A stretch of 64,000 nt of DNA, from positions 1 to 64,000 of the forward strand of contig JACRLX010000025.1 of assembly GCA_016235165.1 (NCBI GenBank). Reading direction: 5' to 3'. The first letter of the stretch is position 1; the number at the start of each line of letters is the position of its first letter. Below the pieces are notes generated by a model that did no database searches, was not told the DNA's origin, and saw nothing but the letters and a program-made list of their open reading frames with translations. This document shows positions 60,567 through 64,000 of the stretch, piece after piece. The translations under genes and the position numbers were made by a program. This stretch comes from Rhodocyclales bacterium (lineage in GTDB: Bacteria; Pseudomonadota; Gammaproteobacteria; Burkholderiales; Rhodocyclaceae).

Positions 60567-60790
60567 AGCGCTCTCGACTGATTCTCCTGTTTGTCCTCGC
60601 GATCTGGGGTGCCCAATCGGTCTGGGCGCAAGGCTGGCAATCCGGGCGCCAGGGCGGCGGCTGGAACAAGCTGGAGATGTGTCACGGCTGCCACGACATG
60701 GGAATGCGCGGCGGCATGGGAATGGGTAGGCATTTGTCCCGCCAATCGTCTGGCGACGGGCGACGCCGCGCCCGTCATGCCGCGTCGTAG
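60563..60790 (+). CDS. Small exported CxxCH-containing protein
   Basis: 75 aa: signal peptide MKRSRLILLFVLAIWGAQSVWA, then a Gly-rich segment with MCHGCHDMGMRGGMGMG. CHGCH fits a c-type haem attachment motif, with several Met as possible axial ligands or metal ligands. The tail is Arg-rich. ATG overlaps the fpr stop. The protein is too short for a normal cytochrome c, so haem binding is unproven. Confidence 0.6.
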   Translation: MKRSRLILLFVLAIWGAQSVWAQGWQSGRQGGGWNKLEMCHGCHDMGMRGGMGMGRHLSRQSSGDGRRRARHAAS

Positions 60791-60800
60791 GAGAACAGAA

Positions 60801-61253
60801 ATGACGAATCGATGTTTCGGACTGCTACCACCCGCAATGCTTGCTATATCCGTTCTGATCTGGGGGGGCGCTGGACTTGCCGCCGAGCAGCCGCTACCGC
60901 CCGACGAGGCGTTCAAGTTCAAGGCATCATTCAAGCGCCCCGATGTCGTGGTGGCGGAAATCATCCCGGCCAAGAACCACTATTTCTACAAGAGCAAAAC
61001 CCGCTTCGCGCTGAAGAACGCCAACGGTGTCCTCATCACGCAAGTGGTGCTACCCGCCGGCGAGATGAAGAACGATCCTTTCTTCGGTCTGATTGAGGTG
61101 TACAAGGCGCCCATTGCGGTCAGCATTCACCTGGATCGAGCGCCCAAGGCCCAATCGTTCACCCTGTATTCGACGTATCAAGGATGCAACGAGAAACTCG
61201 GAATCTGTTATCCGCCGATTGAAAAAACCATCGAAATGAAATTCCCAAAATAG
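60801..61253 (+). CDS. Stand-alone DsbD alpha-domain-like protein
   Basis: 150 aa with a signal peptide (about 1-28) followed by the N-terminal immunoglobulin-like domain of DsbD: LPPDEAFKFKASF, IIPAKNHYFYKSK, and the redox pair in YQGCNEKLGICYPP. The membrane beta and thioredoxin gamma domains of DsbD are absent. AGGAG precedes the ATG. Its TAG stop is the last codon of the 8-bp duplication made by the IS, so the gene itself is complete. It probably exchanges electrons with the downstream DsbE-like protein. Confidence 0.85.
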   Translation: MTNRCFGLLPPAMLAISVLIWGGAGLAAEQPLPPDEAFKFKASFKRPDVVVAEIIPAKNHYFYKSKTRFALKNANGVLITQVVLPAGEMKNDPFFGLIEVYKAPIAVSIHLDRAPKAQSFTLYSTYQGCNEKLGICYPPIEKTIEMKFPK

Positions 61254-62741
61254 GGCTCTGTTGAGTTTCGAGTGGGTTAAGCGGCATGCGGATTGATCTT
61301 CGAGAAGTCGAGCTTGCCGGCGATGAGAAAGACGACGGCGCGAATGGTCGAGAAGCTGCTGTAGCCGCGCGCCTTGCGTTTGGCGGCCTGGAACAGGCCG
61401 TTGATGGCTTCGAGGAAACCGTTGGTCTGGCGCGTCTGCGTCCAGGCGACGATGCCCTCCAGATGAGAGCGGATCATTTTTGCCACCTCCTTCATCGGTT
61501 CGACCTTCGAGCGCATCACGTTGGTAGTCCATTGCAGCAACATGCTGCGCACGACATTGACCTGCTTGCGCTCCAGAATTTCCCGCAACTGCTCTTTGTA
61601 GAGCCAGCAGCGCGCCGTTCGCTTGGTGGTCGCCTGGGCGATCAAGGCATCCAGATCGTTGCGGGCATCCGCCGCCAGATTCGCCCGATCATGCAGCAAC
61701 TTCCAGCGCAGTCCCTTGAGGCTCGGGTCGGTGCGCTGCTCAATGCGGCGGGTCTTATCGACGGCGGTATTGGCATGAGCGATGACGTGGAACTTGTCGA
61801 AGGTGATCTGGGCGCTGGGCAGGTGCTTGGATACGCCGCTGATAAAGGCTGGCGACATGTCGATGGAGATGGAGTCGACCGCCTTGGGATCGCCGCCGTG
61901 CGCGGTGAAATCGGCGGCAAAGTCCTTGATGGTCTGGGCATCACGCCCCTCGGTGACGAAGAGCACGCGCCGCTGGTCGGCATCGGCGACCAAGGTGATG
62001 TAATCATGTCCGCGCGCCTTCGAGGTTTCGTCGGACGCCAGACGCTTCACTTCGGAGAAGTCGGCCTGCGCCAGGCTCAGATCGACGTAGCGCTTGCAGA
62101 TGGCCGTCACCTGATGCCAGGAGAGGTTCACCAGTCGAGCGACAGCGGTGAAGGTCATCTCGCGGCACAGCGTCAGGATCAGCGCTTCGAACAGCAGCGT
62201 GAAGCCGGCAAGTTTCCCCGCCCAATCGGGTTCGACCTGGCGAACACCGCCATCAGGCAACTTGACCCGCGGCACGCGCACCTCCAACTGACACTCGTGC
62301 TGGAAGAAGTTCAGATGCCGGTAGCGCTTCGTCACGGTGTCATGCACCGGATGAAGTCCTTCCACACCAGGAACGGCAAAGCGGCTCCCGGCGACAAAGT
62401 CCACAGTAATGGTCAGCTCCTTCTTTGCGGCGTCGAACTCCACGCCGTTGATGAACCACGGATCGGTGATGCCCAGTGCGGCTTCAAACAACTTGGCACT
62501 CATGTCTGTCCTGTCACTCTCGTTTCTGTCGGGCGCGCATCCTACCTGCCTCGCCGCTCATCCAATCACCGCTCGGGTCTCTATGGCCGGATGCGTAACA
62601 GCGCCGCATCCAGCCATAGACCAGCGTATCGCCCGATTCCAGGCGTCAAGGGTTCGCTGCGCCGGGCTTCGCCCGCCCTTGACCCCCAGCCTCGGGCTAC
62701 CGTCGTCATGCCCCGTTACCCACTCGAAATTCAAGAGAGGC
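61254..62741 (-). mobile_element. ISL3-family insertion sequence with 8-bp target duplication
   Basis: 1488 bp. Terminal inverted repeats of about 26 bp: GGCTCTGTTGAGTTTCGAG on the left (from 61254) and GCCTCTCTTGAATTTCGAG on the right strand (from 62741), 22 of 26 positions identical. Flanked by perfect 8-bp direct repeats CAAAATAG (61246-61253 and 62742-62749). It contains one transposase gene. Confidence 0.93.
61277..62503 (-). CDS. ISL3-family transposase
   Basis: 408 aa, intact. N-terminal zinc-ribbon-like and HTH region (SWHQVTAICKRYVDLS) and a DDE domain: Asp in LASDETSKARGHDYITLVAD, Asp in SIDMSPAFISG with FDKFHVIAHAN, and Glu in NGFLEAINGLFQAAKRKARG. This matches the ISL3 group. The 5' region to the right inverted repeat (62504-62741) is noncoding. 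Confidence 0.93.
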   Translation of the reverse strand: MSAKLFEAALGITDPWFINGVEFDAAKKELTITVDFVAGSRFAVPGVEGLHPVHDTVTKRYRHLNFFQHECQLEVRVPRVKLPDGGVRQVEPDWAGKLAGFTLLFEALILTLCREMTFTAVARLVNLSWHQVTAICKRYVDLSLAQADFSEVKRLASDETSKARGHDYITLVADADQRRVLFVTEGRDAQTIKDFAADFTAHGGDPKAVDSISIDMSPAFISGVSKHLPSAQITFDKFHVIAHANTAVDKTRRIEQRTDPSLKGLRWKLLHDRANLAADARNDLDALIAQATTKRTARCWLYKEQLREILERKQVNVVRSMLLQWTTNVMRSKVEPMKEVAKMIRSHLEGIVAWTQTRQTNGFLEAINGLFQAAKRKARGYSSFSTIRAVVFLIAGKLDFSKINPHAA

Positions 62742-62819: not shown

Positions 62820-63240
62820 GTGTCGAGGTACTGGTTGTTGCCGTTGTTCGTTTTCATCATTCTTGTCGGCTTTCTGGGTGCGGGTTTGCGGCTCAACCCG
62901 CGCGAAGTACCGTCGCCCCTGATCGATAAGCCGACCCCGGCATTCCGGATCCCACAACTGCATGACGCCGGGAAAACCATCGATCCGCAGGACATGAAAG
63001 GCAGGGTTTGGCTGCTCAACGTCTGGGCGTCCTGGTGCGCGGCTTGTCGTCAGGAGCATCCTCTGCTGGTCGAAGTTGCCCGACGCAACATCGTCCCCAT
63101 CGTCGGACTGAATTACAAGGACACCCGTGACGCTGCGCAGAACTGGCTGCAAGAAATCGGTAATCCTTATGTCCTGTCGGCGTTCGACGCCGACGGACGC
63201 GTGGGCATCGACTACGGGGTGTACGGCGTTCCTGAGACGT
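62820..63240 (+). CDS. DsbE/TlpA-like thioredoxin, first exon
   Basis: GTG start with AGGGAG upstream. The exon encodes an N-terminal membrane anchor (YWLLPLFVFIILVGFLGAGL), then the thioredoxin fold with active site WASWCAACRQEHP and a cis-Pro loop GVYGVPET, where it is interrupted. The reading frame resumes at 63960 with FLIDQQGIIRYKHI. DsbE/CcmG proteins reduce apocytochrome c thiols. Read straight through, the frame ends with an unrelated tail at 63335. The gene runs off the right edge. Confidence 0.88.
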
Positions 63241-63959
63241 GTGCGCCGGGCATGGCGCGTTACTTCGTCGGTGAAAGTCCGATGGCCAGGTTTGCAGAGC
63301 CGAAGGCAAGGAGAAGGGCAAGGGCGTTGCCGTGAGGCAGGGTCTGAAGGAAGCCCAATCCAAAGCTGCGGGGCGATGAACAAAAACCGGATATGAGGCG
63401 TGATGCATTCGGGACGAGCGGGCACGTGACCGCGAAGTCCTCCATCTGCGGCAGTAGGGTGCATTTTGTAAATCCGGCGTCTATGCAGTGAAGGTAACGC
63501 GTCTTACCCCGGGAGATCTCTCCGGTGCTTCGGAAAAGTGAAGCTGGGCGTCTGGTAACGGGCGCTGAATACCGTGGAGAAGTCAGCAGAGGGCATAGTA
63601 GTTGGAAGGCAGGCAAGGCTAGTGAGGCACTGCAATGTCGAAAGACGCAGCCCCGGATAGGCCGGAGCCGCAAAGCCGCCCAATGAAGGCCCGAACGGTA
63701 CCCCGCGAGGGGATTGAAAGAGAGGAGAAGTCGCTTGCCAAGGAACAGCGGTATTGCATTCGGCGAGTCCGGAAGGCGCAAGCCTGATGGCTGGAATGAA
63801 ACCGACGTTGGCGCGGTAGGAGATGAAGCTCCGGTTGAACGGGGTGGTGGTATGCTTTTCACCATGCTGAACGACTTAATCTGCCGAACCGCCGGATACG
63901 TGACCCGTACGTCCGGTGGTGTGGGAGGGGGAAGCCGTGAGGCTTTTCCCTATCCCGAT
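63241..63959 (+). mobile_element. ORF-less group II intron interrupting the DsbE-like gene
   Basis: 719 nt. It begins GTGCG and ends GAT. The 5' part has a GCGCC/GGCGC stem and TCGGTGAAAGTCC, typical of domain I. A domain V-like hairpin lies near 63890-63922 (CCGCCGGA ... TCCGGTGG) and a domain VI-like stem with CCCTATCCC near 63923-63956. A loop GCGTC (63499-63503) in a GGTAA/TTACC hairpin can pair with exon GACGT (63236-63240) as EBS1-IBS1. No reverse transcriptase is encoded. It lies in the same orientation as the host gene. Confidence 0.87.
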
Positions 63960-64000
63960 TCTTGATCGACCAGCAGGGCATCATTCGTTACAAGCACATT
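63960..64000 (+). CDS. DsbE/TlpA-like thioredoxin, start of second exon (partial)
   Basis: Joined to 63240, the codons read E-T-F-L-I-D-Q-Q-G-I-I-R-Y-K-H-I, the usual strand after the cis-Pro loop of CcmG/DsbE proteins. The remainder is beyond the window. Confidence 0.85.

Follow-up and report, generated by a model that had tools for sequence, protein, structure and literature searches.

A dsbE gene at the end of the analyzed DNA (a 64,000-nucleotide stretch of a Rhodocyclales bacterium genome, here called the window) is interrupted by a group II intron that lacks a reverse transcriptase (RT) gene and whose removal would restore the reading frame exactly. Sequence comparison, the only tie between them, places this intron as a displaced, ORF-less relative of class-C-like introns that occupy integron attC sites on their top strand. 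This origin had been missed in the initial annotation of the window.

Exon 1 alone scored 141.9 bits against the DsbE model TIGR00385 (cut-off 123.15). Along the contig (C7) the model ran colinearly through both exons, with 62835-63239 matching model positions 2-141 and 63956-64054 matching positions 141-173, as expected of a DsbE family member. Exon 1 ends GAG ACG T at 63240 and exon 2 begins TC TTG ATC at 63960; joined, they read GVPET-FLID, and the frame past the junction is FLIDQQGIIRYKHIGPITARALETELLPRIRKLTAS, followed by the stop codon. This bears out the initial annotation, which had described a split DsbE-like gene with its frame restored exactly by removal of the insert. An unspliced mRNA has 31 intron codons after GVPET and a stop at 63335, and DsbE would then be truncated after GVPET with a 31-residue tail. 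Since the intron lies in frame inside the gene, dsbE should work only if the intron leaves the mRNA.

Ten places in the genome match the dsbE model, and two exceed its cut-off, namely exon 1 and, on contig C8, an intact gene. The C8 gene is 66% identical to the intron-bearing copy over residues 3-174 and is flanked by frames that we take, from their sequence, to be CcmF and CcmH. Because of this intact gene, the intron-bearing dsbE looks like an accessory second copy and is probably not the essential or housekeeping one. We also looked for intact homologues in relatives, as had been proposed. The joined DsbE protein was matched in all 31 genomes of the genus, with a near full-length match at 60-67% identity in 24 of them (the C8 copy included); matches in the others were lower, split, partial or weak. 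A pattern for the intron at the GVPET codons, allowing no mismatch, matched this genome alone among 399 belonging to the order. The surrounding dsb cluster is flanked on both sides by E1-E2 ATPases with heavy-metal domains and includes a frame (L022:8157-8594) that by eye we take to be DsbB-like. An ISL3 transposase gene lies in the same cluster as the intron, so two mobile elements entered it.

Table 1. Features of the intron-bearing dsbE region (window positions unless a locus is named).
Feature	Position	Strand	Basis or remark
DsbD_N protein	60789-61250		neighbor of the intron-bearing dsbE
ISL3 transposase gene	61277-62503	minus	separates the DsbD_N gene from the intron-bearing dsbE
dsbE exon 1, 421 bases (140 codons plus one base)	62820-63240	+	TIGR00385; GTG start, ends GVPET
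Hairpin in exon 1, 43 bases	63187-63229	+	-10.7 kcal/mol (DNA parameters); gap of 11 bases to the insertion point
IBS1, ACGT	63237-63240	+	ACGT in most relative copies (counts in text)
ORF-less group II intron, 719 bases	63241-63959	+	GTGCG...CCCGAT
Proposed EBS1, ACGT	63424-63427	+	hairpin 63418-63433, variable loop of RF02001; predicted pairing
CGCGTC loop holding the EBS1 first proposed	63498-63503	+	third base varies; probably not EBS1
Structured domain IV, in place of an RT gene	63724-63876	+	43 pairs; coordinates hand-converted from columns 488-656
Domain V	63888-63920	+	RF00029
Domain VI	63926-63956	+	Rfam match and covariation fold
Candidate branch-point A	63952	+	in domain VI, 8 bases before the 3' end
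dsbE exon 2, start	63960-64000	+	TIGR00385; continues past the window, stop codon at contig 64067-64069
Thioredoxin-fold/DSBA protein	L022:8591-9247		neighbor

The insert is a group II intron, and its boundaries are those first assigned to it: GTGCG at 63241 and GAT at 63957-63959 are the GUGYG and AY end signals of the class. When the intron was compared with group II models, a check that had been called for, three Rfam families passed their gathering scores: RF02001 (131.1 bits at 63326-63502, gathering score 32), RF01998 (44.1 bits at 63544-63620, gathering score 35) and, weakest of the three and by a margin of 1.1 bits, the domain V/VI model RF00029 (41.1 bits at 63887-63959, gathering score 40). 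The matches follow the order expected for group II, with parts of domain I preceding domain V/VI. The intron contains no RT frame, stops breaking all three forward frames, in agreement with the earlier claim that it lacks an RT gene.

A DNA search found the intron sequence in 10 of the 31 genomes of the genus and in at least 109 of 395 genomes of the family (its own genome counted in both). The family figure is a lower bound, only two candidates per genome having been scored, and includes many fragments and more remote introns. Where the 5' end was present, copies had attC-type stems upstream, followed by approximately ACGT, the intron and T. The four bases before the relative introns were exactly ACGT in 18 of 24 copies and otherwise ATGT, CCGT, GCGT (twice), AGGT or ACGA. 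An R'' motif was present within the 80 bases searched in 12 of the 24, compared with 3.2% of 2000 random stretches, and the 3' flanks read TRRRY in 7 of 22 and T followed by a purine in 16 of 22. (Hairpins were compared in 22 relative flanks; the motif count of 24 adds second copies in L060 and L062.) The arrangement is clear on plasmid pR148, where, in a class 1 integron, the intron follows the aadA1 cassette and precedes its own RT gene and qacEdelta1. It is in cassette orientation, with GCGT before it and TAGATGC after it, which is the attC top strand. The RT of another relative (L025) scores 401 bits against TIGR04416, and its closest solved chain is the GsI-IIC RT (406 bits; the next scored 325), from which we call the lineage RT class-C-like. 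The genome studied here has a complete integron integrase gene of its own (C41:36677-37621, L078; 476.8 bits, cut-off 265).

Two features of the 3' end were seen among the relatives. Two copies (L092:5297-6008 and L090:5923-6708) end in CCCAAA instead of CCCGAT, so the 3' end can vary in the lineage. In L025, two copies of domain V/VI (1448-1522 and 1732-1805) lie 210 bases apart behind one RT gene. They are 92.0% and 94.7% identical to the domains of the dsbE intron by blastn, and only the first passes the gathering score. Such a tandem 3' end could permit alternative 3' splice sites.

The ORF-less form is not confined to dsbE. Nine distinct ORF-less loci were found besides our own (G046, G152, G184, G335, G023, L090, L092, L095 and L097), of which L090 and L095 were called ORF-less by pattern and partial matches only. 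The ORF-less domain IV pattern occurred in eight named stretches, L091, L093, L094 and L096 repeating G335, G023, G046 and G152. In the G023 intron (L026:5573-7755), an element with a transposase-like frame, presumably IS110-like, interrupts the sequence near intron position 345. The one-contig genome G184 has both forms in attC-like sites, one copy being ORF-less and the other bearing an RT as a 484-amino-acid open frame. Mobilization of the ORF-less copies in trans would be the simple reading, a process that PMC2882425 demonstrates for T. elongatus introns.

We aligned G046, G152, G184, G335 and G023 (in two pieces) and later added Contendobacter and Nitrosovibrio MAG records. The resulting alignment, A1, holds seven of the ten ORF-less loci. 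It leaves out G023 (cut by the transposase-like frame), L090 (interrupted) and L095 (which runs off its locus); two of its rows are partial, and L097 is unmatched over its first 22 bases. The RNAalifold consensus of A1 has 193 pairs, 40 of them changed on both sides. The dsbE intron forms 192 of the 193, the highest of the seven rows in a consensus whose alignment includes it; the other rows form 189/193, 182/186, 186/193, 184/193, 143/146 and 155/163. A second alignment, A2, consists of 14 copies, other copies with a 5' end being left out. The RNAalifold fold of domains I to III, from 14 rows, has 107 pairs, again with 40 changed on both sides. Covariation thus backs a ribozyme fold that looks intact in the dsbE intron.

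Domain IV, where an RT gene would otherwise lie, is itself structured. Its cells are 93.4% paired, and 20 of its 43 pairs are changed on both sides. None of 500 shuffles reached the paired share and the double changes, 2 of 500 matched its count of additional pair types, and versions slid along the alignment were at most 44.9% paired. A search of domain IV for an RT remnant gave weak matches only (best tblastn E value of 0.041; best blastn E value of 0.034, over 19 bases), and a recent deletion of the ORF is therefore unsupported. An old deletion may have occurred, because a short stretch there, GAAGGCCCGAACG, also occurs in RT-bearing copies.

The initial annotation had assigned EBS1 to GCGTC at 63499-63503. 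A loop does exist at that place, but all four bases occur at its third position among the copies. Because this base varies while nearly all insertion sites end in ACGT, the assignment is probably wrong. A better candidate is a loop that RF02001 writes as variable (GCaaaacA) and that reads GCACGUGA in the dsbE intron. This loop, GC-ACGT-GA at 63422-63429, is the same in all aligned copies of A1 and A2; further relatives that had no hairpin at the expected place, their 5' part being cut, diverged or interrupted, were left out of the comparison. Its ACGT is probably EBS1 and would pair with the IBS1 ACGT at the end of exon 1.

Upstream of the insertion point, exon 1 can form a hairpin that resembles the attC stems preceding the relatives. 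The relatives' mean was -12.9 kcal/mol over 22 flanks, two weak ones (L067 at -0.9 and L071 at -1.8 kcal/mol) being kept in the mean. The distance from hairpin to insertion point is also the commonest among the relatives (9 of 22). Hairpins at least as strong were found at 1 of 61 ACGT/T sites of the window, 2 of 81 ACGT/T sites in three stretches of the genome, 17 of 549 NCGT/T sites and 22 of 500 base shuffles, as well as at 15 of 543 positions in the gene, a count that includes the site itself and may include neighbors sharing its hairpin. The dsbE hairpin thus beats about 96-97% of control sites, a signal at the 2.5-4.4% level, which suggests, without being decisive, that an attC-like hairpin stood in for the attC stem. 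The dsbE site, having neither an R'' motif nor TRRRY, is not an attC site. The short IBS1 (3-4 bp) and upstream stem-loop typical of class C (IIC) introns are both seen here, as ACGT and the hairpin 11 bases away, the evidence for the hairpin being modest.

The account that we consider probable, with some reserve, is that an ORF-less member of a class-C-like lineage, which normally homes to integron attC sites in their top strand, was moved in trans by a cognate RT, either in an earlier host cell or in a donor. Its EBS1 ACGT would have paired with ACGT in dsbE, the upstream hairpin would have served in place of the attC stem, and the intron would have come to lie, in sense orientation, within an accessory dsbE gene. 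From the mRNA it would cut itself out, alone or with an ill-matched maturase, and GVPET-FLID would be restored exactly. Some doubt attaches to this account because class C introns, according to the relevant passages of PMC4424553, insert after terminators or at attC motifs, and the dsbE site is neither. A further-reaching version, which we put forward tentatively, is that a long-lived lineage of ORF-less class-C-like introns, whose domain IV is its own, conserved and covarying, spreads within integron cassette arrays on borrowed RTs. One member would then have left the integron in this genome by mistaking a coding-gene hairpin for an attC, and would now splice from a protein gene although the cell has no related maturase.

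The 4.47-Mb genome (57 contigs) has one RT by PF00078, on contig C52, and a query with the lineage RT up to an E value of 10 found only this protein. The initial annotation had proposed a genome search for related introns bearing an RT; an RT-bearing intron is indeed there, but it is of another type. The assembly thus contains no RT of the lineage type, and since the genome is a draft, one outside the assembly is conceivable. We consider splicing of the dsbE intron in the cell likely. If it occurs, it would rely on the ribozyme with general helpers or on an ill-matched maturase. The initial annotation held that a protein from elsewhere is required, which goes beyond these results: the ribozyme may act without one, or the intron may not splice.

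In that last case the intron would be a dead insertion that has lost its maturase, and this dsbE copy would be a recent pseudogene for which the C8 gene makes up. The missing RT fits such a history, as does the ISL3 transposase gene that closely precedes dsbE in its cluster, and loss of the intron-bearing copy would be bearable because a second, intact dsbE exists. Yet the two exons are undamaged and keep the frame, the intron has the sense orientation, and its ribozyme fold is preserved; we regard a dead insertion as unlikely. We think it improbable that the C52 maturase splices the dsbE intron in trans: it is the only RT found in the genome and an open frame (TIGR04416, 368 bits), but it is just 34% identical to the lineage RT, and its host intron matches a different domain I model, RF02012. 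A misassembly that joined the intron into dsbE, conceivable in a draft, is very improbable, since the intron DNA was matched at dsbE and nowhere else in the genome, the site lies inside a 161-kb contig, and two halves of one gene adjoin it in exact frame.

The C52 intron (L023:5136-7787, about 100135-102786 of the contig), the genome's only RT-bearing group II intron, may merit separate study. It interrupts one tRNA-Gly(CCC) gene just past the anticodon loop, and a complete tRNA-Gly(CCC) gene lies within it, between its domain I and the RT, which has what we take to be an HNH-like tail. Its 3' end was set by restoring the tRNA and agrees with the end of the Rfam match. A whole tRNA-Gly(CCC) lay inside the intron at all ten loci compared (L121-L130). 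The 5' half of the split tRNA was present in all eight loci scanned (L128 and L130 left out), and the 3' half was found by pattern in four of the eight. No comparable group II intron that both splits and carries a tRNA was found in the literature searched.

If our account is right, a lineage of ORF-less introns spread over integrons of several genera, one member of which sits in a coding gene in an assembly devoid of a related maturase, would let nature itself test how a retroelement turns into an intron of a host gene. It would also test whether attC-targeting introns read sequence or a DNA hairpin. Neither the dsbE intron nor the ORF-less lineage was found described in open-licence papers; in the part of PMC8876359 drawn on, "ORF-less" denotes cassettes.

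ORF-less introns are described as rare in bacteria in the passages cited from PMC4424553, which give C.te.I1 of Clostridium tetani as the sole exception then known, its genome having no IEP-related gene, and report that it self-splices in vitro. TeI3 of Thermosynechococcus elongatus, in the corresponding passages of PMC2882425, is moved by IEPs in trans and retains clear remnants of both ORF ends. The dsbE intron shares with both the ORF-less state. Unlike TeI3, it has in domain IV at best a faint ORF remnant together with a covarying fold, and its lineage is linked to attC sites, a link seen for neither TeI3 nor C.te.I1 in those passages. Known IIC-attC introns of the S.ma.I2 type resemble the lineage in combining a stem-loop with a short IBS1 and a class-C-like RT (in the relatives). 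They insert, as cited in PMC7923331, at TTGT/T of the attC bottom strand and run against the cassettes, whereas the lineage inserts at ACGT/T in cassette orientation, most clearly on pR148, and the dsbE junction is likewise ACGT/T. The cited part of PMC7923331 also places one Enterobacter cloacae (E. cloacae) IIC intron in the attC top strand, which likens it to the lineage by site. Also among the closest known counterparts is the pR148 intron itself, 75.5% identical to the dsbE intron over intron positions 1-365 and with the same EBS1 loop; it has GCGT/T at its junction, encodes an RT and sits in an integron, whereas the dsbE intron is RT-less and sits in a protein gene.
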